Assembly (NCBI GenBank): GCA_905479815.1
Contig: CAJQOA010000140.1
Location: forward strand, 1-32,916
From: an uncultured Psychroserpens sp.
GTDB lineage: Bacteria; Bacteroidota; Bacteroidia; Flavobacteriales; Flavobacteriaceae
Length of the DNA: 32,916 nt
Direction of reading: 5' to 3'
Positions 1 to 32,766 of the stretch are shown in pieces (position 1 is the first letter of the stretch; each line of letters opens with the position of its first letter). The position numbers were made by a program, and so were the translations under genes. The notes below the pieces were generated by a model. It made no database searches. It saw only the letters and a program-made list of their open reading frames with translations, and was not told the origin of the DNA.

Positions 1-1488
1 GCAACAAGTCTTTCAGATAATAATACGTCAACAAATAACGCAAACAATACAGATTATAGAATTAATATGCTCAAAAAAGGCGATGGTGGCACATTTCAGT
101 TTACAAATGCGCATCATGAAACTGGTAAAGTAAGTACACGATGGTTGTATACTTACAAAAACGGAGTTGAGTATTGGGATTATGCAGCCCTTGCAATTAA
201 TTCGCCTATTCACCCTGGAGTAGGATATACTCAAAAAGGAACAGGAGTTGGTTCTGAACAACAATACCTATTTGAAGGAAAGCCTAATAATGGTACAATT
301 GCAATAAATGTTACAGATACAGGCGGTAGTGGATCTGTTCCAGCAGTATCAAAAACAGATTACTTATTAGGAAATCCTTATGCATCTGCAATAGATTTAC
401 ATAAGTTTATTGATGATAATGCAGGAGTTATTGATGGCACAATCCAACTATGGCAACAATGGAGTGGGACTTCTCATAATCTAGATTTATATGATGGAGG
501 TTATGCGCAAGTCAATAAAACAGGATCAGTTAGAGCATATCAGTTTGTTGGCATTGAAGGTGCGAATAATGGAAATCAAGATGGCACAAAAACACCAACA
601 AAATATTTACCAGTAGGTCAAGGATTCATGACAGAAATTGTTAATAATGGAACCATAGTATTTAAAAATAGCCAACGTGTATTTATCAAAGAGACAGATG
701 CTAACGGTTCATATACTAATGGCTCAGTGTTTTTTAAAACAGATCATACATCTAAAGATAAAAATAGTGCTTCTCAGGATGAAGAAGAAGAAGAGACGTT
801 TATGCAAAAAATTCGATTAGAATTTAATGCTGTAGATGGACCTGCAACAAAGAGAGAATTGCTTTTAGGATTTAGTAATTTTACTACAGACGATTATGAC
901 TATGGTTATGATGCTAAAAATATTGATGAAAATGATGATGATCTTAATCTGGTTTTAGATGATCAAAACATGATGATTCAAGCATATAGCTCAATAACTT
1001 CAGATAAATCTGTACCACTAAATTTTAAAGCTTCTGGAAGTTATAATTATAGAATAGAACTTACTCAATTAGAAAATATAGAAGCAGATCAAGAGATTTA
1101 CTTAAAAGATAATTTAACAGGCTATTATTTTGATTTAAGAACAGATCAGCATTATGAATTTTCTTCGGAAGAAGGAGAATTCGCAAGCCGTTTTGAGGTT
1201 GTATTTCAAGAACAAGAAGAATCACTATCAACAAATGATGCAGATTATGAGTATAACTTAATATATTTTCAAAATGAGACTAATAAATTGTTTGTAAAAG
1301 GCCTTCAAAGCGATGCAAAACAAGTTATGGTTATAAATATGTTAGGTCAAACAGTACAGGGTTTTACTCAAGTACAAGCTCAAACTTTAGATAATGGATT
1401 ACAAATTTCAAATCTCGCAACAGGAACTTACGTTGTGTATTTAAAGACGGATACAAGCGTGAAAACTAAAAAGATTATTATCAATTAG
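1..1488 (+). CDS. T9SS type A sorting domain protein, C-terminal part (5' end outside window)
   Basis: The reading frame is open from base 1, so the ATG at base 67 is internal and this is the last 495 residues of a larger protein. It ends in a T9SS C-terminal domain ([29 protein letters not shown], terminal KTKKIIIN), which directs secretion across the outer membrane and surface attachment or release. Upstream lies a module common in flavobacterial exoproteins ([47 protein letters not shown]). A flexible acidic linker encoded by a GAA run (bases 778-795) separates the two parts. No catalytic motif is visible. The same architecture recurs in the next gene, so this is one member of a tandem paralog pair. 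Export route is well supported; biological role is unknown, possibly adhesion. Confidence 0.9.
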   Translation, partial: ATSLSDNNTSTNNANNTDYRINMLKKGDGGTFQFTNAHHETGKVSTRWLYTYKNGVEYWDYAALAINSPIHPGVGYTQKGTGVGSEQQYLFEGKPNNGTIAINVTDTGGSGSVPAVSKTDYLLGNPYASAIDLHKFIDDNAGVIDGTIQLWQQWSGTSHNLDLYDGGYAQVNKTGSVRAYQFVGIEGANNGNQDGTKTPTKYLPVGQGFMTEIVNNGTIVFKNSQRVFIKETDANGSYTNGSVFFKTDHTSKDKNSASQDEEEEETFMQKIRLEFNAVDGPATKRELLLGFSNFTTDDYDYGYDAKNIDENDDDLNLVLDDQNMMIQAYSSITSDKSVPLNFKASGSYNYRIELTQLENIEADQEIYLKDNLTGYYFDLRTDQHYEFSSEEGEFASRFEVVFQEQEESLSTNDADYEYNLIYFQNETNKLFVKGLQSDAKQVMVINMLGQTVQGFTQVQAQTLDNGLQISNLATGTYVVYLKTDTSVKTKKIIIN

Positions 1489-1508
1489 ATTTAATTCAAA
1501 AAAAGATA

Positions 1509-1549
1509 AAAAGGCTGTTCTATAATTTATAGAACAGCCTTTTGTTTTT
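1509..1549 (+). terminator. Rho-independent terminator after the first T9SS protein
   Basis: A 16-bp near-perfect stem (1509-1524 with 1528-1543, core AAGGCTGTTCTATA) has a 3-nt loop and is followed by a T-rich tract. It sits 21 bases past the stop codon. The AAGGCTGT/ACAGCCTT core recurs in the terminator of the downstream paralog. Confidence 0.88.
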
Positions 1550-1886
1550 AAGACAAAACGTGATTTTGAAGAGGTTATCACTCTTAAATTTTTAACGATT
1601 AATTTAAAGTAGCTTATGCTTTGAGTTGAGTTGTGCGAAAAAACATAAAATAGGAATGTTATTAATCGTTGATTTCAGTATTTCATTTTTTTAAAATCAC
1701 CATTTAACTGATTTCTTAATCACTTTATCTAATTTGATATTAGTAGGTATAGTAGTCTATCTAACTAATGAGTAAATTTGTATTAAATAGTTGTCACACT
1801 AATAGTTAGTTTGATATATTATTTAATGGATGCCCCTCTAAAATCTATTGATTAAGCTTATCCAAATTTTAATTAATCCTTTTGTT
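1550..1886. other. Intergenic region between the two paralogs, with possible promoter
   Basis: This AT-rich gap has no convincing gene. The best regulatory candidate is TAAATTTG at 1773-1780, which fits the Bacteroidota -7 consensus TAnnTTTG, but no TTG at the usual -33 distance is visible. If real, the transcript leader would be about 100 bases. Nothing else is recognisable. Confidence 0.35.
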
Positions 1887-4800
1887 ATGAAGATTAACCT
1901 ACGTTTTTTATTACTACTTATCTCATTTTTTTGTATTCAATATTCTGTGTCTGCTCAAGATACAGATGGAGATACTATTGTTGATAGCATGGATCAAGAT
2001 GCTGATAACGATGGTATTCTTGATAATGACGAAAAAGGGAGTTCTACAGTAACTACCAATGAATGTGGTAGCGAGGAAGATTTTAATTTTAGTAATTCGC
2101 CTACAGAAATTTCGGGAGACGGGAACATAAGTACATTGTTAGATGGTGAAGTGTTTAGATTTACAAATGTTGGCCCTGGAATAGATGGTATTTTAACAAT
2201 AAATGCTCGTGTTAATGCAACTTGTGATTTATTGGACGATAATAATTCAGGACAGGTTAATTTTTTAAAGCCAGGTGTAAGGTCAGGAAGTTTAACTACA
2301 GGTCAAGAAGGCTATATAGAATACAACCTTCAATTCGTTGCAGCAGGAACTACAACATCGGTTGTTGTGCCTGAATTTTTTATGAACCTTAATGATATTG
2401 ACGGAGACAACCAAAAGGGCGAACGTATTAAAATACCTACACCTTACAGTTATGTCATAGATAATCCTACAGATGTGACGATCACTCAAGAGGGTAATTT
2501 TTTGATTGCAACTTCTGGGTTTACCAATTACCAAGGAACATCAAATGCGTTTTCTACAATTAATGTAAAAGCACGTTACTTTAATACCTCAAGTCTAACA
2601 TTTCAAATGGGAATTCTTGCTAGAACAAATATTAGTAATGTGGTAAGATATTTTAGTTTAGAATTTTCTTGTGTAAATAATTTTACAGATCCTCAAATTA
2701 CTTTTAGTGATGCAGATAATGATGGTATTCCAAATTACAAGGACATTGATAGTGACAATGATGGTATCCCAGACAATGTAGAAGCACAGTCAACTACTGG
2801 TTACATTCAACCTTCTGGAAGTTTTTCAACGACAGGTGTAGATCTTAATTATACTGCAGGTATAACTCCTCAAGATACAGATGGCGATGGTATTCCAGAT
2901 TACATTGATCCAGATTCTGATAATGATGGAACACCAGATATTTCAGAAAACGGAATGGGAAACACCCTTTCAGGAACAGATACTGATGCTGATGGTTTAG
3001 ATGATAATTTTGAAACTAACGGTATTAATGACGCAACACACGATGTAAATGAAGATATTACTAATCCAGCAACTTTACCAGATGCAGATAGTGATTTGTT
3101 AATTGGAGGTGATGTGGATTATCGTGATTTGTTTGATGCAAATCCACCAACAACAGCACAATTAGAGTTTGATGGTTTAGATGATTATTTAACCGTTGAT
3201 GGCTTTCTCGATGATTTAGATCAAGTGACTATTATGGCTTGGATAAAAATAGATAATTCAGCTACAGGAACTATGACCATAGCTGGAGAAGACGTAAGCT
3301 GTAGATTATTTGTTGAGAATGGAAATACTATTGGGTTCTTAACAAAAACAGTAGGAAATACATCACGTTCAATTATAAGCTCTCCAATAAATACTGAAGA
3401 ATGGCATCATGTAACTGGAGTATTTACTTCAACAACAGGTCGTAATGAATTATACATTGATGGTGAACTTGTAGGTTTCAATCCAGGAACTGCAGCTACA
3501 GCAGGAGCAAATATTGAAGTAACTACTGCTAGCAATGGTGCGTTTGAAATTGGGAGACGTTCAAGTAACATAAATAATAAGGAGTATTTTAATGGTGAGT
3601 TAGATGAGGTAAGAGTTTTTAACAAAGCTTTATCTGCAAACCAAATACAACAGATGGTCTTTCAGGAGATTACTAATAACTCTGGAAACGTCAGAGGAAC
3701 AATAATTGATAAAGATATTATAGAGTTTTCAAATTCTAATAACGTTTTATGGGCAAATCTTTTGGCATATTACCCTATGTCAGAAGTAAGAGGAAACGAT
3801 CTAAACGATTACTCACAATATTCAAGAACACTTAAGGTTACTAACATTAACTCAATTCAATCGCAAACTGCTCCAATGCCTTTTCAAACAAGTGCTGATG
3901 GAGACTGGAGTATTGAAAATACATGGTTACATGGTAATGTTTGGGATATTGAAAGTGAAGTGACTAATAAAGACTGGAGTATTGTTCAAATTAAAAATGA
4001 AGTAACATCTACAAATTCGCATACGAACTTAGGTTTGTTTATTGATCTAAATGAGAAATTGACTATTAGTGGAGATTATAAAATAGATAATTCTTGGTAT
4101 TTAGAACTTAATGGAACATTAGATCTTAGTAGCGACTCACAATTAATACAAGGAGAAAATAGTGATTTAGTAACCTCTTCTCAAGGAAAAATATTACGAC
4201 GACAAGAAGGAAATTCAAGTGTCTATTGGTATAATTATTGGGCGTCTCCAGTTGGAGTCACAAGTGCAACTACATTGGCTGATAATAACACTAACTTTAA
4301 TAATGCAAATAATACCAGTTACCAAATAAGCATGCTTAAACAAGGAAATGGAGCAAACGTTCAGTTTACTAATGCACATGATGAAGTTGGTAAAGTAAGC
4401 TCAAGATGGATGTATGTGTACCAAAATGGTGTTACCTATCTTGATTATGCTGCAATAGACGAAAACACGACTCTTCAGCCAGGTGTTGGTTACACTCAAA
4501 AAGGAACTGGAAATTCAGGCAGTGAGCAACAATATATATTTGAAGGAAAACCAAATAATGGTACTATTCTCGTTAATGGTATTGATACAGGTGGAAACGG
4601 ATCTGTGCCTGCAGTCTCTAAAACAGATTACTTATTAGGTAATCCATATCCTTCTGCAATTGATCTTCACAGGTTTATTCTTGATAATTCAACAGTTATT
4701 GATGGTTCAATTCAACTTTGGCAACAATGGAGTGGGACATCACATTTTTTAGATGATTACAATGGTGGTTATGCTACAGTAAACCTTAGTGGTTCAGTTA

Positions 4801-5738
4801 GAGCATCTCAATTTATTGGATTAGAAGGAGGAAACAGTGGTACTGAGGATGGTACAAAATTACCTACAAGATATCTTCCAGTTGGTCAAGGTTTCAATAC
4901 TGAAATCGTTGCTAGCGGAAACGTCATCTTTAACAACAGTCAACGTGTCTTCATAAAAGAAGCAGATGCCGATAATATGGATTCAGATTTAGGATCAGCA
5001 TTTCTTAGAACTGGTAATGATTCAGAAAATGATGCGGATTCCGAAGAAAACAGCATGCAAAAAATACGCTTAGAGTTTAATTCGGTAGATGGACCAGAAG
5101 CAAGACGCGAGTTATTATTAGCCTTTAGTAATTTCACTACAGACGATTATGATTATGGTTACGAAGCAGAAAACTCTGGTGCAGGGAGTGATGATATGAG
5201 TCTTATTTTAGAAGATAAATTAATGCTTATTCAAGCTTATAGTAATATTACAGATGATAAGGTAGTTCCATTATCTATTAAAACATCTGGAACTCATAAT
5301 TACGAAATAAAAATAACAGATCTTGTGAATTTTGATGACGATCAAGGCGTGTATTTGAAAGATAATTTTACTGGCGAAACTTTTGACTTGAAAAATGATC
5401 AAGGGTATGAGTTTTCTTCTGAAATGGGAACATTCAATAATAGATTTGAAATTGTTTTTAATCCAGGAGAAGCATTGTCTACTCAAGAAAACGATTACGA
5501 GTATAATCTTATTTATTTTAATAGTGACACTAATAAGTTGTTTGTAAAAGGTCTTCAAACCGATGTAAAACAAGTTATGGTTATTAATATGCTAGGTCAA
5601 ACCATTCAAGAGTTTAATCAAGTAGAAGCTCAAACTTTAAATAACGGACTTGAAGTTTCGAATCTAACAACAGGAGCTTATGTTGTATACTTAAAGACCG
5701 ATGCAACAGTTAAAACCAAAAAGATTATTATTAATTAA
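1887..5738 (+). CDS. Large T9SS-exported surface protein with calcium-type repeats and LamG-like domain
   Basis: The protein has 1283 residues from the ATG at 1887, chosen because it begins a clean signal peptide ([20 protein letters not shown], cleavage near SAQ); the frame also opens at a TTG at 1848 that would put a poor extension in front. Order: signal peptide; thrombospondin type 3-like Asp-rich repeats (near residues 25-50 and 270-380, e.g. [19 protein letters not shown]), which normally bind calcium; a LamG/concanavalin-like domain (about 424-591, [10 protein letters not shown] to [13 protein letters not shown]); a beta-rich region; the NPYPSAIDL / [10 protein letters not shown] module shared with the upstream paralog; and a T9SS type A sorting domain ending KTKKIIIN. 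It is likely a surface adhesin or glycan-binding protein. No enzyme active site is seen. Confidence 0.88.
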
Positions 5739-5763
5739 TTTTTTTGTAAAATAAGTTAGTAAG

Positions 5764-5798
5764 AAGGCTGTCTCATTATTATGAGAACAGCCTTTTTT
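5764..5798 (+). terminator. Rho-independent terminator after the second T9SS protein
   Basis: A 13-bp stem (5764-5776 with 5781-5794, one bulged A) has a TATT loop and is followed by six T. The outer stem AAGGCTGT/ACAGCCTT matches that of the terminator at 1509-1543, suggesting the terminator was duplicated with the gene. Confidence 0.87.
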
Positions 5799-5812
5799 AA
5801 TACTAAATTTTT

Positions 5813-5820
5813 TAGCTTTG
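5813..5820 (+). promoter_or_regulatory. Possible -7 promoter element TAGCTTTG
   Basis: This is an exact match to TAnnTTTG, but it ends only 4 bases before the ATG of the next gene. A transcript starting from it would be leaderless or would begin inside the start codon. No -33 TTG is visible, because the terminator occupies that place. Confidence 0.3.
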
Positions 5821-5824
5821 TTTT

Positions 5825-6415
5825 ATGAAAAAGTTGATAACTATAATCATCCTCACTTTTATAACTAAAAGTTATTCTCAAACTCAAGACGCTACAATTC
5901 ATTTTAATGATGGAACTTCAGTTTTTGGTTATGGAGAAATAAAAGATGATTGGAAAATTAAATTTAGAACTTCTCAAGATATTGATGCAGACATTTGGAC
6001 AGACAAAATGGTTTATGGGATTACATTTCATGGCTTTGAAGAAGATGTTGAGTATAGATACATGTACAAAAAGGAAGATCAAAGATATCCTTTGCTTTTA
6101 GAGGTGTTGACAGAGGGAGAAGTTACACTATACGCAGATACTTTTAGTTCTAAAATATTTATACCATTTGTTTCTGGTAATGTTTTCTCATTGTCTACAA
6201 TACAAATTCCAACCACAACTAAACTGTATGTGAATAGACGGTCAGATTTTATTATATCTAGCCTTAATGGCGGTTTTAAAAGAAAAATAAGAGCCTATTT
6301 TGCAGATTGCCCTATGTTACTAGAAAAAGTTAATAATAACGAGTTTGGACGACCACAAATAATAGAATTAGTTAATTACTATAATGACTTTTGTACAGAT
6401 TGGAATGAGGATTAA
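5825..6415 (+). CDS. Secreted protein of unknown function
   Basis: The 196-residue protein starts with a signal peptide (MKKLITIIILTFITKSYSQT, probable cleavage near residue 19), giving a periplasmic or outer-membrane-facing product of mixed beta character. The C-terminus has the pattern FADCPMLLEKV ... LVNYYNDFC, a Cys-Pro plus late Tyr/Asn/Cys signature that I associate with short uncharacterised Bacteroidota exported proteins; the two cysteines could form a disulfide. There is no lipobox, no sorting domain and no catalytic motif. It stands alone between a terminator and the ileS leader, so context does not suggest a role. Confidence 0.75.
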   Translation: MKKLITIIILTFITKSYSQTQDATIHFNDGTSVFGYGEIKDDWKIKFRTSQDIDADIWTDKMVYGITFHGFEEDVEYRYMYKKEDQRYPLLLEVLTEGEVTLYADTFSSKIFIPFVSGNVFSLSTIQIPTTTKLYVNRRSDFIISSLNGGFKRKIRAYFADCPMLLEKVNNNEFGRPQIIELVNYYNDFCTDWNED

Positions 6416-6481
6416 AACTCAATGTGACTTTTTAAACTTTTTAGTGTCTTATTTATTGAACGCTAATCCCTCATAAATTCA

Positions 6482-6698: not shown

Positions 6699-9600
6699 AT
6701 GAGCGCTAAATTTCCTGAATATAAAGGACTTGACTTACCAAAAGTAGCAGAAGAAATTCTAAACTATTGGGAGGAAAACAACATCTTTGAAAAAAGTATT
6801 TCCACTAGAGAAGGCAATGAGCCATTTGTGTTTTTTGAAGGACCACCTTCTGCAAATGGATTACCTGGAGTACACCACGTTTTAGCACGTGCTATTAAAG
6901 ATATTTTTCCAAGATATAAAACCATGAAAGGATTCCAAGTAAAGCGAAAAGCTGGATGGGATACACACGGTTTGCCTATAGAACTTGGTGTCGAAAAAGA
7001 ATTAGGAATCACTAAAGAAGACATTGGTAAAACAATCTCTGTAGAAGATTATAATGCCGCTTGTCGTAAAGCAGTCATGCGTTACACAGATGTTTGGAAT
7101 GACCTCACACAAAAAATGGGGTATTGGGTAAATATGGATGATCCATATGTGACCTATGATCCAAAATATATGGAAACTGTATGGTGGCTACTTAAAGAAA
7201 TCTACACTAAAAAATTAATGTATAAAGGCTATACAATACAGCCTTATTCTCCAAAAGCGGGTACAGGATTAAGTTCTCACGAAGTTAATCAGCCAGGAGC
7301 ATATCAGGATGTAACAGATACAACTGTTGTTGCTCAGTTTAAAGCTATAGAAAACACATTGCCAGATTTTTTACAAAACGAAGGTGATATTTATTTCTTA
7401 GCTTGGACAACGACGCCTTGGACATTACCAAGTAATACAGCATTAACGGTTGGGCCAAAAATTGATTACGTTTTAGTAGAGACTTATAATCAATACACGT
7501 TCAAACCCATGAATGTGATTTTAGCAAAGCCTTTAGTTGGAAAACAATTTGGCGGTAAATTGTTTAATCAAGTAGAGACTAAACCAGAATTAATAGAGTA
7601 CACATCTGGTGACAAACAAATTCCGTATTATGTTGTAAAAGAGTTTAAAGGAAAAGATCTTGTTGGTATTAAGTATGAACAATTATTACAATATGCGTTG
7701 CCTAATGATAATCCGCAAGATGCTTTTAGAGTCATTTCTGGAGATTTCGTGACGACAGAAGATGGTACAGGTATCGTTCATACAGCACCAACATTTGGAG
7801 CAGATGATGCATTAGTAGCAAAACAAGCGACACCAGAAATACCGCCATTATTAGTAATGGATGATAATGATAACTTAGTGCCACTTGTAGACTTGCAAGG
7901 TCGTTTTAGACCAGAGATGAAAGAGTTTGGTGGTAAGTATGTAAAGAACGAATATTATAATGATGGTGAAGCACCAGAACGTTCAATAGACGTTGAGTTA
8001 GCCATTAAATTAAAAGAAGAAAATAAAGCCTTTAAGGTTGAAAAATATAAGCACAGCTATCCACATTGTTGGCGTACAGATAAACCAATTTTATACTATC
8101 CGTTAGATTCTTGGTTTATTAAAGTGACAGATGTTAAAGGTAGAATGCAACAGCTTAACAATACGGTCAATTGGAAACCAGAATCAACTGGGACTGGTCG
8201 TTTTGGAAATTGGTTAGCAAACGCAAACGATTGGAATTTATCAAGATCTCGTTATTGGGGAATCCCATTACCAATCTGGAGAACCGAAGATGGTACTGAA
8301 GAAATCTGTATTGGCTCTGTAGGCGAATTAAAATCTGAAATGGCTAAAGCTGTTTCTGCAGGAGTACTTGCAAAAGATATCTTTGACGATTTTGAAGTTG
8401 GTAACTTTTCCGAAGAAAACTATGCAAAAATAGATTTACATAAAAACATCGTTGATGAGATTGTACTAGTGTCACCAAGCGGGCAACCAATGCAACGTGA
8501 GAGCGATTTGATTGATGTCTGGTTTGATTCTGGTTCTATGCCCTATGCACAATGGCATTACCCGTTTGAAAACAAAGAATTAATTGACGATAATAAATCA
8601 TTTCCTGCAGATTTTATTGCAGAAGGTGTTGATCAAACTCGTGGATGGTTCTATACACTTCATGCCATTGCAACAATGGTGTTTGATTCTGTAGCCTACA
8701 AAAACGTGGTGTCTAATGGATTAGTACTAGATAAAAACGGACAAAAAATGTCCAAACGCCTTGGTAATGCAACAGATCCATTTACAACTTTAGATGCATA
8801 TGGAGCAGATGCAACACGTTGGTATATGATTATGAATGCCAACCCTTGGGATAATTTAAAATTTGATCTCGAAGGTATTGAAGAGGTGAAACGTAAGTTC
8901 TTCGGAACATTATATAACACCTATTCATTCTTTACGTTGTATACTAATTTAGATAAATTCACTTATAGTGAAGCTGAAATACCTTTAGAAGAGCGACCAG
9001 AAATTGACCGTTGGGTATTATCTGAACTGCATACATTGATTCAAAAAGTAGATGATTATTATGCAGAATACGAACCAACTAAAGCTGCGCGAGCAATATC
9101 AGAGTTTACTCAGGATTATTTGAGTAATTGGTACGTGCGTTTAAGCAGAAGACGTTTTTGGAAAGGCGATTACGAGACCGATAAAATTTCGGCATATCAA
9201 ACTTTATACACTTGTATGGAAACGATTGCTAAGTTAGGAGCACCAATTGCACCTTTCTTTATGGATCGTTTGTATTTGGATTTAAACTCTGTATCAAATA
9301 AAGAAGCGTTTGAAAGTGTGCATTTATCAGATTTTCCTAAATCTGATGCATCATATATTGATAAGAGCTTAGAACGTAAAATGGAGAGTGCTCAAACAAT
9401 TTCTTCATTAGTATTATCGTTAAGAGCTAAGGAGAAAATTAAAGTACGTCAACCATTGCAAAAAATCATGATTCCTATTGACTCAAAAGAGCAAAAGGAT
9501 GAGATTATGGCAGTTGCTGAGTTGATTAAGTCTGAAGTTAATGTAAAATCGGTTGAGGTTTTAGAAGATGCGAGTGATATATTAGTGAAGCAAATTAAGC

Positions 9601-10106: not shown

Positions 10107-10109
10107 AAT

Positions 10110-13261: not shown

Positions 13262-13834
13262 TTAATATTTTGAGAAGTCGTATATATTGCTTGGAGTAAC
13301 GCAATAATCTATGTTAACATCATTTTTATTAATGTAAGAAATTTCTTCTTCTGAAGAAAAGAACGACAAACCAATTTTAATAGTTTTTGGTTTGCATTGT
13401 GCTAAAAATTTGTCATAGAATCCTTTACCATAGCCTATTCTATTACCTTTTTTATCAAATGCGAGCAAGGGCACGAAGACCACATCAATTTGCTCTGTGC
13501 TAATTGGAATCCCATTTGTAGGCTCTGGGATATTCCATTCATTTTTTTTAAGTACTGTATTGTCAGACAGTAAATAATGTGCCATTTCAAAAGTTTTAAA
13601 ATCACTTTTAGAGATGACAATGTGTTTGTCTTTACCAGAGAGAATACTTAAAATATAATCTGTATTGACTTCTTTTTGTTCTTCTATCGTCAAGAAAATG
13701 TGATAGAATGATTGCTCCCATATTGGTAATTTTAAAAGTTGGTTAGCAATTTCTAAACTCTTAGTTTCTATAGCGTCTTCGGAAAGTTTCTTCCGAAGCA
13801 ACTTATATGTTTTCCGTAATTCATTTTTTGTCAT
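13262..13834 (-). CDS. 5-formyltetrahydrofolate cyclo-ligase
   Basis: The 190-residue cytosolic enzyme converts 5-formyl-THF plus ATP to 5,10-methenyl-THF, returning a storage/inhibitory folate to one-carbon metabolism. Seen: Lys/Arg-rich N-terminus (ELRKTYKLLRKKL) and the family motif NRIGYGKGFYDKFL (131-144), followed by IGLSFF. Length matches the family. It is last in a minus-strand operon and its start overlaps the end of the aspartoacylase-like gene by 14 bases, indicating translational coupling. The first 20 codons contain an 8-bp hairpin built from two inverted copies of TTCCGAAG (13777-13798). Confidence 0.93.
   Translation of the reverse strand: MTKNELRKTYKLLRKKLSEDAIETKSLEIANQLLKLPIWEQSFYHIFLTIEEQKEVNTDYILSILSGKDKHIVISKSDFKTFEMAHYLLSDNTVLKKNEWNIPEPTNGIPISTEQIDVVFVPLLAFDKKGNRIGYGKGFYDKFLAQCKPKTIKIGLSFFSSEEEISYINKNDVNIDYCVTPSNIYDFSKY
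13777..13798 (-). repeat. Hairpin of two inverted TTCCGAAG octamers inside the cyclo-ligase gene
   Basis: CTTCGGAA (13777-13784) and TTCCGAAG (13791-13798) form a perfect 8-bp stem with a 6-base loop, about 36 bases after the start codon of the cyclo-ligase gene. The octamer is the core of the over-represented 12-mer in this window. Confidence 0.55.
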
Positions 13835-16242: not shown

Positions 16243-16250
16243 TAACTTTG
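16243..16250 (+). promoter_or_regulatory. -7 promoter element TAACTTTG of uvrC
   Basis: This is an exact TAnnTTTG match in the 119-base divergent gap between the protease operon and uvrC. It ends 6 bases before the ATG, which would put the transcript start at or next to the start codon. No -33 TTG is evident at normal spacing. Confidence 0.45.
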
Positions 16251-16256
16251 ATAAAA

Positions 16257-18050
16257 ATGGATAAACCTACACTAGACATACAATTAAAAACCTTGCCAAC
16301 AGAGCCTGGAGTGTATCAATATTTTGATATAGATGATAAACTAATTTATGTAGGGAAAGCAAAAAACATAAAGAAAAGAGTTAGCTCTTATTTTACAAAA
16401 ACACATGAAAATGGTAAGACAAGAGTTCTAGTAAAAAAGATTTCTAGTGTTAAGCATATTGTTGTAGAGACTGAGACAGATGCACTTTTGTTAGAAAACA
16501 ATCTTATAAAAAAATACAAGCCACGTTATAATGTGTTGCTTAAAGATGATAAGACGTATCCTTGGATTTGTATAAAGAACGAACGTTTTCCAAGAGTTTT
16601 TTCAACACGACGTATTTTTAAAGATGGCTCAGAGTATTATGGTCCATATACCAGTATGAAAACGGTTTGGACATTGCTGGACTTGATTAAGGGGTTGTAT
16701 AGTTTGCGAACTTGTAATTATAATCTTTCCGAAGAAAAAATAGAAGCAGGTAAGTATAAAGTTTGCTTAGAATATCACTTAGGAAATTGTAAAGGACCTT
16801 GTGAAGATTTGCAGAGTGAAGCAGAATATAATATTCAAATTACTGCCATAAGAGAAATTATAAAAGGAAATTTTAAAGATTCACTCTCTCAATTTAAAAC
16901 CCAAATGAAACAATTAGCTCAAAATATGCAGTTTGAAGACGCACAGCGTATTAAAGAGAAAATAGAGGTTTTAGAAAAATACCAATCAAAATCAACAATT
17001 GTAAACCCTAAAATTAGCAATGTTGATGTGTTTAGTATTATGAGTGATGAAGGTTACGGTTATGTCAACTTTTTACAATTATCCTACGGAAGCATCATCC
17101 GGTCTCACACTTTAGAGATTAAAAAGAAATTAGACGAAACTGATTTGCAATTATTAGAATTAGCAATTACCGAAATTAGGCAACGTTTCAATTCTACATC
17201 CAAAGAAGTCTATGCACCTTTTCCTGTGAACTTAGGTAAAGACATAAAGGTTTATGTTCCAAAACTGGGTGATAAAAAGAAGATTCTAGATTTATCTCTT
17301 CGGAATGCAAAATACTATCGTATGGAGCGTTTTAAACAAGTTAAGATTGTTGATCCAGATCGTCATGCCAATAGAATCATGGCGCAAATGAAAGTAGATT
17401 TAGGTTTGCCTGAAGAGCCTCGTCATATAGAGTGTTTTGATAATTCGAACATACAAGGAACTAACCCTGTGGCTGCCTGTGTAGTTTTTAAAGATGGAAA
17501 GCCAAGTAAACGAGATTATCGTCATTTTAATATAAAGACCGTTGTAGGGCCAGATGATTTTGCATCTATGGAAGAAGTCGTCTATCGACGTTACAAAAGA
17601 TTATTAGATGAAAAGCAACCTTTGCCACATTTGATTATTATAGATGGAGGTAAAGGGCAATTATCATCATCTTTAAAAAGTTTGGATGCCTTAGGTCTTC
17701 GGAATAAAATAGCAATCATCGGAATTGCAAAGCGTTTGGAAGAATTATTTTATCCAGACGACCCAATTCCCTTATATTTAGATAAAAAAAGCGAAACGCT
17801 TAAAGTGATACAGCATTTACGAAACGAAGCACATCGTTTTGGTATAGAACATCATAGAAATAGACGAAGTAAGCAAGCGCTTAATACAGAGTTGGAAACG
17901 ATACCTGGTATTGGAGAACAGACAGTTGTAGCATTGATGAAGCAATTTAAGTCAGTGAAACGCATTTCCGAAGCAAAAAAAGAAGATTTAGAAAAAGTTG
18001 TTGGATTATCAAGAGCTCAAAAAATAATAGAGTATTACAGTAAAAAGTGA
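16257..18050 (+). CDS. uvrC: UvrABC excinuclease subunit C
   Basis: The 597-residue protein makes both incisions in nucleotide excision repair after UvrA/UvrB find the lesion. The ATG at 16257 is chosen over an in-frame TTG at 16248, which is part of the promoter box. Domains: GIY-YIG nuclease (PGVYQYFDIDDKLIYVGKAK, from about residue 17), four cysteines C153, C170, C178 and C182 matching the Fe-S cluster ligands of UvrC (CLEYHLGNCKGPC), UVR motif (FEDAQRIKEKIEVL, about 225-238), RNase H-like nuclease (ECFDNSNIQGTNPVAA, IIIDGGKGQL) and C-terminal helix-hairpin-helix repeats (IPGIGEQTVVALMKQF). Its stop shares GTGA with the next gene's start. Confidence 0.97.
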   Translation: MDKPTLDIQLKTLPTEPGVYQYFDIDDKLIYVGKAKNIKKRVSSYFTKTHENGKTRVLVKKISSVKHIVVETETDALLLENNLIKKYKPRYNVLLKDDKTYPWICIKNERFPRVFSTRRIFKDGSEYYGPYTSMKTVWTLLDLIKGLYSLRTCNYNLSEEKIEAGKYKVCLEYHLGNCKGPCEDLQSEAEYNIQITAIREIIKGNFKDSLSQFKTQMKQLAQNMQFEDAQRIKEKIEVLEKYQSKSTIVNPKISNVDVFSIMSDEGYGYVNFLQLSYGSIIRSHTLEIKKKLDETDLQLLELAITEIRQRFNSTSKEVYAPFPVNLGKDIKVYVPKLGDKKKILDLSLRNAKYYRMERFKQVKIVDPDRHANRIMAQMKVDLGLPEEPRHIECFDNSNIQGTNPVAACVVFKDGKPSKRDYRHFNIKTVVGPDDFASMEEVVYRRYKRLLDEKQPLPHLIIIDGGKGQLSSSLKSLDALGLRNKIAIIGIAKRLEELFYPDDPIPLYLDKKSETLKVIQHLRNEAHRFGIEHHRNRRSKQALNTELETIPGIGEQTVVALMKQFKSVKRISEAKKEDLEKVVGLSRAQKIIEYYSKK

Positions 18051-21642: not shown

Positions 21643-22134
21643 ATGTATAATAAGTTACCTGCAGATCCTACTGCAATGATTTTAGGAATAATAGCACTAA
21701 TAATGTCACTTGCAGGATGCTGCTGTGGTGTTTTTGCATTTATCCCTTTGATTATGAGTATCATTGGTTTGGTGATGGCAAATAAAAGCCTTAAAGAGTT
21801 TCAAGTAAACCCTAGCATTTATGAACCTCAAAGTAAGAGTAATGTGTCAACAGCAAAGATTTTAAATATCATTGCTTTAATCGTTAGTGCTTTGGTGACT
21901 CTATTTTATATCGCTTATTTTATGATTTATGGAGCGCTTATATCTACTGCAATTATGGAGGGTTATGAGTCGCAAAACAATAGTGATGATTATAATTACG
22001 AATGGGAAAGTGATAGTCTTTATGACTATGAAGATGATTATTATGAAATACAAGAAGATAGTATAAGTATCGATTCTCTAAATATTGAAGAATTGATAGA
22101 AACAGAAATAGAAATAGACAGTCTAAATAATTAA
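21643..22134 (+). CDS. Small membrane protein with acidic tail (DUF4190-like)
   Basis: The 163-residue protein has a hydrophobic N-terminal part with two close membrane spans (AMILGIIALIMSLAGCCCG and FAFIPLIMSIIGLVMA) and a third span near residues 72-98. The paired-glycine pattern with GLVMANKSLKEF resembles DUF4190 proteins. The last 55 residues are very rich in Asp, Glu, Tyr and Ser with no hydrophobic core, likely a disordered tail. It starts 12 bases after hmgA and sits between two tyrosine-degradation enzymes, but nothing in it suggests an enzymatic role. Function unknown. Confidence 0.78.
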   Translation: MYNKLPADPTAMILGIIALIMSLAGCCCGVFAFIPLIMSIIGLVMANKSLKEFQVNPSIYEPQSKSNVSTAKILNIIALIVSALVTLFYIAYFMIYGALISTAIMEGYESQNNSDDYNYEWESDSLYDYEDDYYEIQEDSISIDSLNIEELIETEIEIDSLNN

Positions 22135-22147: not shown

Positions 22148-22159
22148 TTTTCTTCGGAA
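22148..22159 (-). repeat. Intergenic copy of the 12-mer TTCCGAAGAAAA
   Basis: It lies in the 64-base gap before hppD, on the minus strand. With the opposite-strand copy at 23448-23459 it brackets hppD. See the finding on the over-represented motif. Confidence 0.6.
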
Positions 22160-22198: not shown

Positions 22199-23359
22199 AT
22201 GGCAAAAGAAGTAAAAAGTGTCGATTACGGATTGGAAAAAATCTTCGAAGGAGCACAAGATTTTTTACCACTTTTAGGTACAGATTATGTAGAGTTTTAT
22301 GTAGGTAATGCTAAGCAATCTGCTCATTTTTATAAAACAGCATTTGGGTTTCAATCCTATGCATATAAAGGGCTAGAAACAGGTTCTAGAGATTCAGTGA
22401 GTTACGTCTTAAAACAAGATAAAATTAGATTAGTGCTAACAACTCCTTTAAATAGCAAATCACCAATCAATGATCATATTGTAAAACATGGTGATGGCGT
22501 AAAAGTAGTAGCGTTATGGGTTGATGATGCAAGAAAATCATACGAAGAAACCACAAAACGAGGCGCAAAATCCTATATGGAACCAACTGTTGAAAAAGAC
22601 GAATTTGGTGAAGTCGTAAGAGCAGGAATCTATACATATGGTGAAACGGTTCACATGTTTGTTGAACGCAAAAATTATACAGGTACGTTTATGCCTGGTT
22701 TTCAAAAATGGGAATCAGATTACAATCCAGAACCTGTAGGATTAAAGTATATTGACCACATGGTTGGTAACGTGGGTTGGGGACAAATGAATACTTGGGT
22801 TAAATGGTATGAAGATGTTATGGGCTTTGTTAATTTTTTATCTTTTGATGACAAACAAATCCATACAGAGTACTCTGCATTGATGAGTAAAGTGATGAGT
22901 AATGGTAATGGACGTATCAAATTCCCAATTAACGAACCAGCAAAAGCAGCAAAACGATCTCAAATTGAAGAGTATTTAGATTTTTATGAAGATTCAGGCG
23001 TGCAACATATTGCAGTAGCTACAGATGATATTATTAAGACAGTAGCACAATTAAAGGCAAGAGGTATAGAGTTTTTACCTCCTCCTCCTCAGGCTTATTA
23101 TGATGAGATTCCTAAGAGGTTAGGAGAGCATATGGAGATGATGAATGAAGATATTAATGAACTCCAAAAGTTATCTATTATGATAGATGCAGATGAAGAA
23201 GGCTACTTGCTTCAAATCTTCACAAAACCAGTAGAAGATAGACCAACCTTGTTTTTTGAGATTATTCAAAGAATGGGAGCTCAAGGTTTTGGTGCAGGTA
23301 ATTTTAAAGCATTATTTGAATCTATCGAAAGAGAGCAAGAAAAACGAGGTACGTTGTAA
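22199..23359 (+). CDS. hppD: 4-hydroxyphenylpyruvate dioxygenase
   Basis: The 386-residue vicinal-oxygen-chelate enzyme converts 4-hydroxyphenylpyruvate to homogentisate, the substrate of HmgA. The N-terminal half (about 25-160) is the non-catalytic repeat. The C-terminal half carries the Fe(II) triad H187 (YIDHMVGNV), H270 (SGVQHIAVATDDI) and E354 (LFFEIIQRMG), with the usual C-terminal helix GFGAGNFKALFESIEREQ. Length is close to that of fungal and animal enzymes. It is 64 bases downstream of the membrane-protein gene and followed by a terminator, so it closes the hmgA unit. Confidence 0.96.
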   Translation: MAKEVKSVDYGLEKIFEGAQDFLPLLGTDYVEFYVGNAKQSAHFYKTAFGFQSYAYKGLETGSRDSVSYVLKQDKIRLVLTTPLNSKSPINDHIVKHGDGVKVVALWVDDARKSYEETTKRGAKSYMEPTVEKDEFGEVVRAGIYTYGETVHMFVERKNYTGTFMPGFQKWESDYNPEPVGLKYIDHMVGNVGWGQMNTWVKWYEDVMGFVNFLSFDDKQIHTEYSALMSKVMSNGNGRIKFPINEPAKAAKRSQIEEYLDFYEDSGVQHIAVATDDIIKTVAQLKARGIEFLPPPPQAYYDEIPKRLGEHMEMMNEDINELQKLSIMIDADEEGYLLQIFTKPVEDRPTLFFEIIQRMGAQGFGAGNFKALFESIEREQEKRGTL

Positions 23360-23447: not shown

Positions 23448-23459
23448 TTCCGAAGAAAA
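23448..23459 (+). repeat. Intergenic copy of the 12-mer TTCCGAAGAAAA
   Basis: It lies between the hppD terminator and the next promoter, in sequence with no coding function. Confidence 0.6.
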
Positions 23460-23538: not shown

Positions 23539-23612
23539 GAATAGTAATTGTAATTCTACCTACTATACAATAAAATGAAATGGTAAAAGTTTCATTTATA
23601 ATAATTACGATA

Positions 23613-24404
23613 ATGAAAAATGTACTACTTATATTTAGTATCCTGTTTTACATGCAAGCCTCTTTTGCCCAGAAAGAGAGTGCGTTTAAAGATGGAGAAT
23701 GGTTTAAATTTGAAATGAGCTACAGTGGTATGCTTAAAGCAGGAAACGCAACATTATCTGTTGATGAAACAACTCTACAAGGAAAACCTGTGTATCACGT
23801 TACAGGAAAAGGCTGGACCACAGGTGCTATTAAATGGATTTTTAAAGTTAAAGATAGATACGAGAGTTATTTTGATAAAGAAACAGGAGTGCCTTATAAG
23901 TTTATAAGAAAAATTGATGAAGGTGGTCACACAAAAAATATTGAGATAGACTTTGATCATAATAAGAAAGAGGCCTTAGTAGAAAATAAAAAATACAAAA
24001 CCAAAAAGACAGTTACGACAGAGCCTAACGTTCAAGATATGGTGTCTGCTTTTTATTACCTGCGTAATAATTATGAAACTGATGATATAAAGGTTGGAGA
24101 TGTTGTAGAGTTAGATATTTTCTTTGATGAAGAGAATTTTGGTTTTAAACTTAAATACTTAGGAAAAGAAACTATTGAAACAGAAATAAATGGCGCTGAC
24201 GTTAAGATAAAAACGCTTAAGTTTAGACCATATGTAATGGCTGGTCGTGTTTTTAAAGAAGAAGAAAGTTTAACACTTTGGGTAAGTGCAGATGAAAATA
24301 AAATACCACTTAAAATAAAAGCAGATTTAGCTGTTGGTTCATTAAGAGCAGATCTTGTAGAATATAAAGGTCTCAAACACTATTTCCCAATACAATTTGA
24401 CTAA
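23613..24404 (+). CDS. DUF3108 exported protein
   Basis: The 263-residue protein starts at the ATG at 23613, which begins a normal signal peptide (MKNVLLIFSILFYMQASFAQ); an in-frame ATG at 23580 would add 11 hydrophobic residues in front and is less likely. The mature part is beta-rich, starting DGEWFKFEMSYSGMLKAGNA and ending ADLAVGSLRADLVEYKGL, the pattern of DUF3108, a periplasmic family of uncertain function with an elongated beta fold. It begins a tight operon: kynA starts 4 bases after its stop. A link to tryptophan catabolism is not evident from the sequence. Confidence 0.82.
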   Translation: MKNVLLIFSILFYMQASFAQKESAFKDGEWFKFEMSYSGMLKAGNATLSVDETTLQGKPVYHVTGKGWTTGAIKWIFKVKDRYESYFDKETGVPYKFIRKIDEGGHTKNIEIDFDHNKKEALVENKKYKTKKTVTTEPNVQDMVSAFYYLRNNYETDDIKVGDVVELDIFFDEENFGFKLKYLGKETIETEINGADVKIKTLKFRPYVMAGRVFKEEESLTLWVSADENKIPLKIKADLAVGSLRADLVEYKGLKHYFPIQFD

Positions 24405-24408
24405 CTAA

Positions 24409-25338: not shown

Positions 25339-25359
25339 TAATTTACAACCAATAAATTA

Positions 25360-26646
25360 ATGCAACCAAAACAATTATTAATAGCACTTATGTTATGCAT
25401 TTGTGTTTTTTCATGTAAAAAAGAAGAAAAGACAGAGGTAGAACCATTACAAGCAATTGTTGAACCAGAACCTATTAAAGAATTTGGTTTTATTCTTGAA
25501 GATTATATCGTAAAAAGAGATACTATTAGAAAAGGGGATAGTTTTGGAGAAATCTTAGAACGTAACCATATAGGTTATCCTAGAATTTTCAATATTGCAG
25601 AAAAAGTCAAAGATAGTTTTGATATTAGAAAACTTAAACTTGGCAAACCCTATACTTTATTGTGCGCTAAAGACTCACTTCAAACGCCTGAGTGTTTTAT
25701 ATATCAACTAAATAATATTGATTATGTTGTTATAAAATTTGCTGATTCTGTCATTACTTACAACGAAAAAAAACCAATAACCATCGTACAAAAAGAGGCA
25801 TCAGGTATTGTGATGAATAGTCTTTCTGAAACCATGGAACAACAAGGTTTGCCTTATGAGTTGATTAATGATATGAGTGATGTTTACGCTTGGACAATAG
25901 ATTTTTTTAGACTTCAAAAAGGAGATAGTTTTAAAATTGTTTACCAACAACGATTTATTGAAGATTCTATTTCTGCAGGAATAGAAAGTATAGATGCAGC
26001 ATATTTTAAACATAAGGACGAACCGTTTTATGCGTTTAATTTTGAGGTGGATAGCACGAAAAACATATCAGATTATTTTGATGAAAACACTAAGAGTTTA
26101 AGGCGAACATTCCTAAAAGCACCTGTACAGTTTAGTAGAATATCATCTCGTTATAATTTAAATCGTCGTATTAAATACTATGGTTATAGATTAAGACCAC
26201 ATAGAGGGACCGATTTTGCAGCACCAATTGGAACAGAGATTTTAGCAACAGCAAATGGTACAGTTACTGAGTCTACAAGACGTGGCGGAAATGGGAAATT
26301 CGTAAAGATTAAGCATAATGGTACTTATAGTACACAATACTTACATATGAAAGCCCAGAATGTAAAAAAAGGCGCTTTTGTAAAACAAGGTGATGTGATT
26401 GGTTGGGTTGGTATGACAGGAAATACTGGAGGACCACATGTGTGTTATCGTTTTTGGAAAAACGGTAAAGAAGTAGATCCATTCAAAGAAAAATTACCTG
26501 CAGCAGAGTCTATCCCAGACTCTTTAAAAGCAAATTATACAGAGTTTATCAAGCCGTTAAAAATACAGTTGGATAACATTCAATTTAAAGAAAATAAAAT
26601 AGAAATTCCTTCGGAAGAAGAAACACTTACCAGTAAAATTCAATAA
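25360..26646 (+). CDS. M23 peptidase lipoprotein with LysM/OapA-like domain and HxC motif
   Basis: The 428-residue protein carries a lipoprotein signal peptide (MQPKQLLIALMLCICVFSC, lipid-anchored Cys19). Residues about 48-105 resemble the LysM/OapA region of MepM-type endopeptidases (IRKGDSFGEILERN). The LytM domain (about 245-385) has H281 and D285 (PHRGTDFAAP) and YLHM, but the usual HxH is HVC (residues 360-362, GGPHVCYRFW), replacing the second His, normally a zinc ligand, with Cys. Cys could still bind zinc, or the enzyme may be an activator without hydrolase activity. It likely acts on peptidoglycan cross-links at the periplasmic face. Its stop and the pgi start overlap (TAATG). Confidence 0.9.
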   Translation: MQPKQLLIALMLCICVFSCKKEEKTEVEPLQAIVEPEPIKEFGFILEDYIVKRDTIRKGDSFGEILERNHIGYPRIFNIAEKVKDSFDIRKLKLGKPYTLLCAKDSLQTPECFIYQLNNIDYVVIKFADSVITYNEKKPITIVQKEASGIVMNSLSETMEQQGLPYELINDMSDVYAWTIDFFRLQKGDSFKIVYQQRFIEDSISAGIESIDAAYFKHKDEPFYAFNFEVDSTKNISDYFDENTKSLRRTFLKAPVQFSRISSRYNLNRRIKYYGYRLRPHRGTDFAAPIGTEILATANGTVTESTRRGGNGKFVKIKHNGTYSTQYLHMKAQNVKKGAFVKQGDVIGWVGMTGNTGGPHVCYRFWKNGKEVDPFKEKLPAAESIPDSLKANYTEFIKPLKIQLDNIQFKENKIEIPSEEETLTSKIQ

Positions 26647-28292: not shown

Positions 28293-28366
28293 GTAATGTT
28301 AAATACTTAACTAATTATCAGTATTCTAATTTCAGAATTTAAGAAAAATTTAAGTAATTTTACATG

Positions 28367-28452
28367 TTAATAAATCTTAACATTATGGTAATATAGTATC
28401 GTTTAAACAGACGTATTTTTGCCGAAAATTAAAACTCTTTAATAAATCTTAA
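28367..28452. repeat. 14-bp direct repeat flanking the TonB receptor promoter
   Basis: TTAATAAATCTTAA occurs at 28367-28380 and again at 28439-28452, the second copy ending 3 bases before the ATG. The -7 box lies between them. The copies could be regulator sites, or the second could be part of the translation start region. Confidence 0.5.
28414..28421 (+). promoter_or_regulatory. -7 promoter element TATTTTTG of the TonB receptor gene
   Basis: This is an exact TAnnTTTG match, followed by GC, 34 bases before the ATG, giving a leader of about 28 bases. No clear -33 TTG is visible. Confidence 0.5.
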
Positions 28453-28455
28453 ACA

Positions 28456-30996: not shown

Positions 30997-31007
30997 AAAA
31001 AAGAAAA

Positions 31008-32684
31008 ATGAAAAAAGTAATTTATTTATTCGCTTTAGTGGGTATAATCTTTACAGGTTGTAACCCGTTAGATGATATCAATGCAGAAATTGATGCTATT
31101 CCAGATGAGCCAAATGTAGGTGCATTTGAGTACACACTTATTGATGCAGATTATGACCGTTTTGACTTAAGCTTCGGGAACTTTGGTTCTGAGCTACAAG
31201 CAAAAGATTCTATTCCATTATTATTAGAAGAATTATATCCTTTATATGGTGAAGGGTCGTCAGTTTTAGTTAATTATGATCTTTTTATTGGATCTGCAGA
31301 AGGTGTTAGTGATTATACTGGAGCAACAGCATATCAATTAACAAACGATGATTATGCAACAACTGGAAGTGATGCTTTTGGTTTTTATCCAGATGTAGAT
31401 GCAACTAATGAAATTCCTAATGTATTAGGTGCTCAAATTGCTGATCCTGTTGATGGGCAATTAGTATTAGCGACTTATAAGCAATATTTTGAAAACCCTG
31501 TAGTTGGTTTAGCAAATGTATACCAAGCAACTTTCCCTGATAGTTATGATGACTTTGAATTGATATCAGTATCTGGTCCTGACGAATTAGGATGGACTGT
31601 TGGAGCTGCAAATGTTCAAGGTTCTGCTTTTAATGGTTCTGCAAACGCTCTTGAAGAGTGGTTGATTTCTCCAGAAGTTGATTTAACAGGAGAGTCTGGT
31701 TTATCATTCCAAATCACTCAAGAAATTGATTTTTTAGGTGATGATACTTTAATTGATATCTTAATCTCTACAGATTATAACGGTGGTGGCACTGTTGCTG
31801 ATGTAACAGCTGCAAACTGGACAGCTATTAGCTTTGATAAAACTATCTACGGAAGTTTAACAACATCTGAAGATTTTGATTTTTCTGCTTATGAAGGAGA
31901 AACAGTTCATGTAGGTCTTAAATACAGTTCTACAGATAATGATTCTCCAAGATGGAGAGTTCAAGATTTCGCTGTTAGAACAATTGGTGTTACTGGAGAT
32001 ACAGATTCTAAAGGAGAATACTTCGTTTACGACGGTGGTTCTTGGGAAGAAGCAGAAGATGTATACTATTTAAGTAATTCTGATTATGATTCTATGGGAG
32101 AAGGTAATGGACAGCCAGGAGCTTTTAATAACTTTAGTAGTTCTACTCCTGCAGATAATTACTTACCAACATTTTTAAGTATCTCGTATCCTTTTGCTCA
32201 AGAAGAAGATCAGATTTTTGTAATCTACAAATACTTCTCAAGTAATAGTGGTGCAGGAATTAGAGGAAACTCTTATATGTTTATCAATGGTGCTTGGATG
32301 CCTCATGAAAATGTGATTTCTACGTCGTTACAATTTGGTTTTACTGATGGAGAATGGGTTCCTGATAATACTATTAGATACATGATTACTGCTGGTAACT
32401 TTGATTATATCGAAACAAACTATGCAGCAACTGTAGGTTTTGAAGATGCAGTATCAAGTATGGCTAATTTTGGTAACTTTGATAGAAGACCTTCTAACGA
32501 TGCTTACTGGAGTAATGATATGATTTTGACTGTATTTGCTGATCTTTTAGAGAATGTTATAGCTCCTGGAGCAGCAGATGATCAAAAATATGTAATCGCT
32601 GTTGATATCTATGATGGTAGTAACGGGATTGAAGAATTCAGCTTAATAAAAACAGCTGGTGAATGGATTTACAACGTAGAGTAG
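31008..32684 (+). CDS. Surface lipoprotein with choice-of-anchor J-like domain, TonB receptor partner
   Basis: The 558-residue lipoprotein has signal peptide MKKVIYLFALVGIIFTGC, lipid-anchored Cys18. After an acidic linker the middle part (about 180-330) resembles a cleaved-adhesin/choice-of-anchor J jelly roll (DELGWTVGAANVQGSAF, EEWLISPEVDLTGESGLSF, HVGLKYSS, RWRVQDFAVRT). The C-terminal half contains repeated Tyr-rich pieces (EYFVYDGGSWEEAEDVYYL, SYMFINGAWMP) and ends AVDIYDGSNGIEEFSLIKT. It is co-transcribed with the receptor and probably sits on the cell surface as its substrate-binding or lid subunit, by analogy with SusD although the folds differ. It is strongly acidic with no enzyme motif. 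A terminator follows. Confidence 0.85.
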   Translation: MKKVIYLFALVGIIFTGCNPLDDINAEIDAIPDEPNVGAFEYTLIDADYDRFDLSFGNFGSELQAKDSIPLLLEELYPLYGEGSSVLVNYDLFIGSAEGVSDYTGATAYQLTNDDYATTGSDAFGFYPDVDATNEIPNVLGAQIADPVDGQLVLATYKQYFENPVVGLANVYQATFPDSYDDFELISVSGPDELGWTVGAANVQGSAFNGSANALEEWLISPEVDLTGESGLSFQITQEIDFLGDDTLIDILISTDYNGGGTVADVTAANWTAISFDKTIYGSLTTSEDFDFSAYEGETVHVGLKYSSTDNDSPRWRVQDFAVRTIGVTGDTDSKGEYFVYDGGSWEEAEDVYYLSNSDYDSMGEGNGQPGAFNNFSSSTPADNYLPTFLSISYPFAQEEDQIFVIYKYFSSNSGAGIRGNSYMFINGAWMPHENVISTSLQFGFTDGEWVPDNTIRYMITAGNFDYIETNYAATVGFEDAVSSMANFGNFDRRPSNDAYWSNDMILTVFADLLENVIAPGAADDQKYVIAVDIYDGSNGIEEFSLIKTAGEWIYNVE

Positions 32685-32706
32685 TAATTCAAAAACTTTA
32701 AATTAT

Positions 32707-32741
32707 AAAAAATGCCTATCGAAAATCGATAGGCATTTTTT
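32707..32741. terminator. Bidirectional terminator between convergent genes
   Basis: A 16-bp stem (32707-32722 with 32726-32741, core ATGCCTATCGA) has a 3-base AAA loop, an A run on one side and a T run on the other. It can serve both the lipoprotein gene and the convergent gene on the minus strand. Confidence 0.9.
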
Positions 32742-32754
32742 TGTGTTTTCTATT

Positions 32755-32766
32755 TTCCGAAGAAAA
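32755..32766 (+). repeat. Intergenic copy of the 12-mer TTCCGAAGAAAA
   Basis: It lies in the short space between the terminator and the stop codon of the convergent minus-strand gene. Confidence 0.6.

Follow-up and report, generated by a model that had tools for sequence, protein, structure and literature searches.

A dispersed octamer maintained at the DNA level in Psychroserpens and some other Flavobacteriaceae is a candidate DNA uptake sequence

Why should one short word recur through the genes and gaps of a bacterial contig far more often than its composition predicts? The DNA in question (the window) is a stretch of 32,916 nucleotides from an uncultured Psychroserpens sp. (contig CAJQOA010000140.1), and the word is the octamer TTCCGAAG, together with a 12-mer that contains it. 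An annotation made from the letters alone (the sequence-only reading) had reported seven 12-mers and 14 octamers in the window and had offered a Chi-like, uptake-type, segregation or nucleoid-protein site, or a very short dispersed repeat, as explanations. Both sets of copies were located as claimed. Seven 12-mers compare with a mean of 0.01 expected, and none of 100 shuffles reached seven; 14 octamers compare with 0.55 expected and a largest shuffle value of 3. Of the explanations on offer, an uptake-type word is the best by analogy with known systems. In our judgment there is about an even chance that TTCCGAAG is a DNA uptake sequence read by a pilus-free uptake machinery of the Riemerella type.

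The window's own genome (G000; 3.3 Mb in 265 contigs; completeness, 88.7%) falls in the Psychroserpens group: its isoleucyl-tRNA synthetase shares 94% identity with the Arcticiflavibacter luteus enzyme and 89-91% with the enzymes of named Psychroserpens species. It contains 206 copies of the 12-mer against 3 of the reversed word and 925 copies of TTCCGAAG against 134, so the excess is neither close to background nor confined to the window. In a 417-kb sample of this genome, TTCCGAAG was the most over-represented 8-mer (137 copies versus 6.5 under an order-3 Markov model; z 51); the sample comprised the window and 20 stretches picked from contigs with the 12-mer, which biases its density upwards. 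The same octamer ranked first in 420 kb sampled from G006, a single-contig genome of the same genus (256 versus 11.2; z 73). Stretches from G006, and likewise from G145, G285 and G122, were taken at even intervals.

The motif unit consists of TTCCGAAG with a favoured T at position -1 and an A-rich stretch from +8 onward. The 12-mer is indeed overabundant, as the sequence-only reading had it, but its status as the natural unit was not borne out; it is the commonest extension of the broader motif based on the octamer. G at -1 was rare in G006, G000, G145 and G285 (1-3%) and reached 6-10% in G122, G322, G057 and G084. Several one-base variants were themselves enriched in G006, namely TTCCGCAG (82 versus 7.5), TTCCGTAG (66 versus 7.0), TTCGGAAG (47 versus 11.2) and TGCCGAAG (12 versus 1.7), and many others occurred at or below expectation. 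Tolerance therefore depends on position, a pattern that would resemble recognition by a DNA-reading protein. The related words TTCTGAA, TTCTGAAG and TTTCTGAA were also enriched in G145, G285 and G122 and are possibly a dialect of the word.

Copies inside genes were compared with 20 synonymous-codon shuffles per genome, and the observed numbers were far higher in G006 (202 versus 11.5; 17-fold), G000 (111 versus 8.1), G285 (62 versus 11), G145 (132 versus 22.7) and G322 (64 versus 7.8). The word was used in all six reading frames. Codon usage, or selection for Ser-Glu-Glu, was rejected as an explanation on these two grounds. The coding 12-mers had been described as spelling Ser-Glu-Glu, which is correct for three of the four (5039, 8408 and 16727); the copy at 1159 is antisense to its own open reading frame (ORF), where the in-frame reading is Phe-Ser-Ser-Glu. 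Across five genomes, 288 copies were in sense and 346 in antisense orientation relative to the gene, a slight antisense excess. The remaining 12-mers of the window (22148, 23448 and 32755) lie between ORFs, as reported. A more general enrichment between genes was seen for the 12-mer in G000, where 8 of 39 copies in the sample were intergenic and the noncoding share is about 8%, and not for the octamer in general. Intergenic octamers made up 13.7% in G006 (noncoding share, 9.5%), 8.8% in G000 (7.8%), 17.7% in G285 (16.0%), 4.0% in G145 (8.3%) and 15.8% in G322 (16.4%).

Orthologous loci indicated how the copies arise. When 69 sites were aligned with 11 related loci, the word was spanned without a gap in 489 of 528 alignments, of which 154 were identical over the word, 123 differed by one change, 115 by two and 97 by more. 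The 39 alignments with a gap over the word were, among those visible, mostly in poorly aligned stretches. Copies are gained and lost through point substitution and not through insertion.

Retention of the word was then compared with that of words of the same composition in enriched species (the window, L031, L034 and L035) and low species (L032, L036, L040, L048, L043 and L046). These sets were picked after counts in the same loci, and the pairs share species, run both ways and are not independent. Among the four enriched species, the word was retained at 66 of 108 places versus 656 of 4,099 (16%) for control words. The values were 14 of 159 versus 616 of 6,377 from enriched to low species, 2 of 28 versus 746 of 8,378 among low species and 14 of 27 versus 616 of 6,765 from low to enriched species. 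The last value fits ancestral sites kept in the enriched species, or parallel gains. With no retention excess from enriched to low species or among low species, active retention appears to be confined to enriched lineages. Synonymous shuffles and retention between enriched species together support the maintenance at the DNA level that had been proposed from the window.

No replication-strand bias, which the sequence-only reading had suggested looking for, was seen. In G006, 130 copies lay on the leading and 126 on the lagging strand (replichores assigned from the sign of GC skew), and strand counts by local skew in five genomes were 74/76, 47/52, 25/23, 29/26 and 39/42. These counts weaken the Chi-like and segregation-polarity readings. 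The spread in G006 was near Poisson (variance/mean, 1.2 over 21 stretches covering 11% of the chromosome), and this evenness weakens the idea of a regional nucleoid site; in G322 the spread was less even (3.9, ten contig starts). The G006 sample showed neither the polarity nor the regional clustering of sites of the KOPS or MatP, Noc and SlmA types. One G006 stretch (L219; contig 1, 3420001-3440000) had 2 copies against a mean of 12.2 (P = 4e-4 singly, about 0.01 as the lowest of 21). Its GC content is 0.377 versus 0.343 in the G006 sample, it encodes ParB, DUF932, efflux, rhodanese/metallo-lactamase and TauE proteins, and it looks like an integrated mobile element.

To place the word in the family, a genome was called enriched if it had 400 or more copies and no fewer than three times the count of the reversed-word control, with tables tallied by eye. 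By this measure 27 of 299 Flavobacteriaceae genomes, in 18 genera, were enriched, and genomes at two to three times the control (e.g., G310, G300 and G117) fell outside the set. The highest counts were 2,678 in G322 (control, 245), 2,187 in G057 (322), 2,099 in G107 (257), 1,976 in G287 (302) and 1,495 in G084 (187). Among nine genera represented by two genomes with at least one passing, both passed in seven and only one in g81 and g92; all three members of the window's genus in the 299-genome sample passed. Among 395 genomes across the phylum, some of them in the family, no genome outside Flavobacteriaceae exceeded 430 copies. Raw counts are given for the phylum because the reversed word is an imperfect control, being sometimes itself rare outside the family. 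Within the window's genus (23 genomes), counts ranged from 2,174 in G006 (control, 118) down to 293 in G014 (269) and 278 in G020 (179). In G032 and G286 (genus g11), TTCCGAAG was rarer than the reversed control (7 versus 54 and 5 versus 60), as if it were avoided or low through composition.

The word is scattered without polarity, arises by substitution and is maintained, and in these respects it matches the Haemophilus and Neisseria uptake words as described in excerpts of PMC2346458; uptake is proposed on that account. In excerpts from the same source, those words likewise lack a general strand bias in the genome. A pilus-free, sequence-biased form of uptake is proposed because the uptake-like pattern is accompanied by Riemerella-type genes and mostly by no strong match to a PilB-type ATPase. 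A surface protein would bind free double-stranded DNA bearing the word, which would be imported via an outer-membrane beta-barrel and a DUF5689 lipoprotein and then by ComEC and DprA. Preference for such DNA, followed by its integration into the chromosome through recombination, would favour word-creating point mutations over time, and copies would accumulate evenly on both strands. Abundance, DNA-level maintenance, origin by substitution, the absence of replication-strand and regional bias, and the presence of DUF5689 and ComEC genes are observed here; we infer preferential uptake and which protein would read the word.

The model for such a machinery comes from Riemerella anatipestifer, in which, according to excerpts of PMC8459023, a transposon screen identified ComEC, DprA, ComF, RecA and four essential proteins without known counterparts. 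According to the same excerpts, one of these four is located in the outer membrane and has a carboxypeptidase-regulatory domain, another is a DUF5689 protein encoded next to it, and homologs are reported from Psychroserpens. R. columbina prefers its own DNA; the excerpted parts of PMC7965970 name no word, list frequent k-mers whose function is said to need study, and show table entries that are A-rich. The pair known from R. anatipestifer is present in G006: the carboxypeptidase-regulatory domain is part of a 950-residue protein, and after it comes a DUF5689 protein of 477 residues whose start is lipoprotein-like. A strong DUF5689 match was found in all 23 genomes of the genus, each with a long open frame directly upstream (the barrel domain was identified in G006 only), and ComEC was found in all 60 genomes tested, enriched or not. 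Of the Riemerella-type set, the search covered ComEC and the barrel/DUF5689 pair; ComEC and DUF5689 are families with members required for transformation in Riemerella (excerpts of PMC8459023).

Several candidate factors were rejected as explanations of word abundance. ComEC, universal in the genomes tested, is uninformative. DUF5689 does not discriminate, being present in 26 of 27 enriched genomes versus 271 of 299 overall; the sole enriched genome lacking it, G246, is 68% complete. A suggestive pair comes from genus g50: G300 has DUF5689 and 516 copies (control, 219); G075 lacks DUF5689 and has 91 copies (control, 209). Pilus machinery was rejected since strong matches to the PilB-type ATPase family (PF00437) occurred in only 6 of the 27 enriched genomes, with none strong in the other 21; G322 and G246, unlisted for PF00437, were taken as among 11 unlisted genomes without a match. 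In the window's genome, which is 88.7% complete, the PF00437 search gave a weak match only (E = 3e-4). By this search, the window's genome and most enriched genomes lacked a strong match to the type IV pilus machinery expected for a Neisseria-type uptake sequence.

A second, secreted DUF5689 protein consists of a variable N-terminal part, DUF5689 and a sorting tail. With the G006 protein as the query, close relatives were found in 8 of the 23 genomes of the genus. The seven carriers other than G006 were 51-80% identical over approximately the C-terminal two thirds (E of 3e-97 or lower), and in the other 15 genomes no match was stronger than E = 2e-45, the best ones falling in other parts or in the sorting tail. 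The copy in the window's genome runs to a contig end and scored below the DUF5689 threshold by hmmscan and above it in the genome search. The eight carriers rank 1 to 6, 8 and 10 of 23 by octamer count. Carriage was associated with the word/control ratio (Mann-Whitney p = 1.4e-5, uncorrected, 23 genomes), and correction on an isoleucyl-tRNA synthetase tree, in which several deeper branches are poorly supported, gave p = 0.01 at lambda 1 (the best of five) and 3e-5 at lambda 0. Because five of the eight carriers, including the window's genome, form one high-copy clade (bootstrap 94, ratios 6 to 18), the finding that this protein tracks motif abundance is a lead, not proof. Secreted DUF5689 proteins at L252 (8036-9697) and L253 (8283-10034) share a similar C-terminal part and the same gene neighbourhood; the N-terminal part in G006 is of the lamin-tail type and bears no relation to the one in G015.

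G009, G002 and G020 share a very divergent allele of the locus that encodes the barrel and the DUF5689 lipoprotein (L222-L244; L260, 4489-8831). The branch of this allele (length 1.92, support 100/100) cuts across the species tree. Neither the lipoprotein tree nor that of the upstream frame matches the isoleucyl-tRNA synthetase tree, which suggests exchange at the locus. Sequence searches of solved structures gave weak matches only for the DUF5689 lipoprotein (best E = 0.17) and mainly sorting-tail matches for the secreted DUF5689 protein. Tentatively, and with clearly less confidence than we attach to uptake itself, the SusCD-like pair of barrel and DUF5689 lipoprotein, perhaps with the secreted second DUF5689 protein, might be a sequence-specific importer whose activity has spread TTCCGAAG-type words through whole genera; it would then be a further independent origin of uptake sequences.

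Several points weigh against the uptake interpretation. Relatives within one genus differ from about 18 to 1.1 times the control, which is fast for a recognition system, and neither ComEC (60/60) nor DUF5689 (271/299) follows word abundance. Inverted pairs and gene-end bias have both been described for other uptake systems; close pairs showed no clear excess in G006 (11 versus 9.4 expected), with 5 of the 11 in -+ orientation, and gene-end bias was not clear here. Codon-atypical genes were depleted of the word in G145 (0.17 versus 0.42 to 0.52 per kb) and not in G000 or G006.

Binding by a nucleoid protein or a chromosome organiser, at a site favoured chromosome-wide, would account for the even spread on both strands, the protein-like pattern of tolerance and maintenance limited to some lineages. 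Such a site is nevertheless unlikely, given that the regional pattern of terminus or division-control site sets is absent and that copy number varies from 278 to 2,174 inside one genus. Equally dispersed and highly repeated, and with an abundance that depends on lineage, are the cyanobacterial HIP octamers as presented in excerpts of PMC4390886, for which upkeep by a DNA methylase and associated mismatch-type repair has been proposed. HIP is a palindrome, however, and TTCCGAAG is not; its flank preferences are asymmetric and its tolerance one-sided, and the methylase explanation is rated as quite unlikely. Both explanations, methylase-linked upkeep of the word and binding by a nucleoid protein, still stand beside uptake as alternatives.

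Chi sites have strand polarity towards the replication origin. A Chi-like recombination site for AddAB or RecBCD would fit the length, abundance and genic location of TTCCGAAG, but with leading- and lagging-strand copies in balance it is improbable. Spread as a mobile or hairpin-forming short repeat, to which the potential UUCG-type hairpin of the complement TTTTCTTCGGAAA and the inverted pair at 13777/13791 might point, is contradicted by substitution origin in the ungapped ortholog alignments and can be largely dismissed. A hairpin or terminator function was likewise rejected, since the flanks lack pairing covariation.

The octamers of the window are listed in Table 1. At the start of the 5-formyltetrahydrofolate (5-FTHF) cyclo-ligase gene (13777-13798), two of them stand 14 bases apart and point towards each other, and a similar aligned pair is found in L035. 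A single gene of 1.8 kb, uvrC (16248-18050), holds 4 of the 14 copies. In other groups, repair genes are enriched for uptake words, according to work cited in excerpts of PMC2346458.

Table 1. Occurrences of TTCCGAAG in the 32,916-nucleotide window
Element	Position	Strand	Context
Octamer (12-mer 1159-1170)	1163..1170	-	Antisense in ORF 67-1488, sorting-tail protein
Octamer (12-mer 5039-5050)	5039..5046	+	Sense, ORF 1848-5738; aligned word in L031, L034, L035
Octamer (12-mer 8408-8419)	8408..8415	+	Sense, isoleucyl-tRNA synthetase; common to L031, L034, L035, L037
Octamer	8900..8907	-	Antisense, isoleucyl-tRNA synthetase
Octamer	13777..13784	-	5-FTHF cyclo-ligase gene; inverted pair with 13791
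Octamer	13791..13798	+	5-FTHF cyclo-ligase gene; inverted pair with 13777
Octamer (12-mer 16727-16738)	16727..16734	+	Sense, uvrC; common to L031, L033, L035, L037, L040
Octamer	17298..17305	-	Antisense, uvrC
Octamer	17697..17704	-	Antisense, uvrC
Octamer	17966..17973	+	Sense, uvrC
Octamer (12-mer 22148-22159)	22152..22159	-	Between ORFs 21643-22134 and 22199-23359
Octamer (12-mer 23448-23459)	23448..23455	+	Between ORFs 22199-23359 and 23580-24404
Octamer	26609..26616	-	Antisense, M23 peptidase ORF 25360-26646
Octamer (12-mer 32755-32766)	32755..32762	+	Downstream of ORF 31008-32684

Other dispersed words were encountered in related genomes. The palindrome GGAATTCC occurred 84 times versus 15.9 expected in Winogradskyella loci (e.g., L045, L067 and L075), in 22 of 24 loci, and is possibly a separate word of that genus; the loci are orthologous, and shared coding sequence may inflate the count. 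G322 (L171-L180) has long, GC-rich repeated words, GAGTCTCACG among them (38 copies in 200 kb), which point to a family of longer dispersed repeats. In G285 (L151-L160), CATTTTTG and related words (98 versus 25 expected) point to another.

To our knowledge, the only families with established uptake words are Pasteurellaceae and Neisseriaceae, and both take up DNA by means of pili. Among the matches listed in the open PubMed Central literature, to which the search was confined (subscription papers and preprints lay outside it), none described a recognition word for Flavobacteriaceae. By analogy with the self-DNA labels of Haemophilus and Neisseria, our results suggest that the Psychroserpens family may recognise its own DNA. 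If so, biased transformation would become testable in a large environmental group, the word would indicate what the Riemerella-type uptake machine reads, and its addition to donor DNA could help the genetics of environmental flavobacteria that are hard to transform. Even without uptake, an octamer that is actively maintained, reaches 2,678 copies and varies approximately seven-fold in abundance within one genus calls for explanation.

Among known systems, Chi resembles TTCCGAAG as a frequent octamer inside genes and differs in its strand polarity. The A-rich flank of TTCCGAAG resembles the A/T-rich tract beside the core of the Haemophilus uptake signal sequence (USS). HIP1 and related words are also dispersed, over-represented octamers in some lineages of a group; they are palindromic and mostly GC-rich in the excerpts of PMC4390886, and TTCCGAAG is neither, not being its own reverse complement. 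The USS of Pasteurellaceae and the DNA uptake sequence (DUS) of Neisseriaceae come closer, as short, nonpalindromic words with hundreds to thousands of genic copies on both strands (excerpts of PMC2346458) and with dialects related between relatives (excerpts of PMC3630211). They differ in the word itself and in phylum, and a strong PilB-type ATPase match is absent from the window's genome and from 21 of the 27 enriched genomes. The Riemerella machinery, to no part of which a recognition word has been assigned, has its likeness here in the DUF5689 protein found throughout the genus (23/23), in the adjoining carboxypeptidase-regulatory barrel of G006 and in ComEC, present in every genome tested (60/60).

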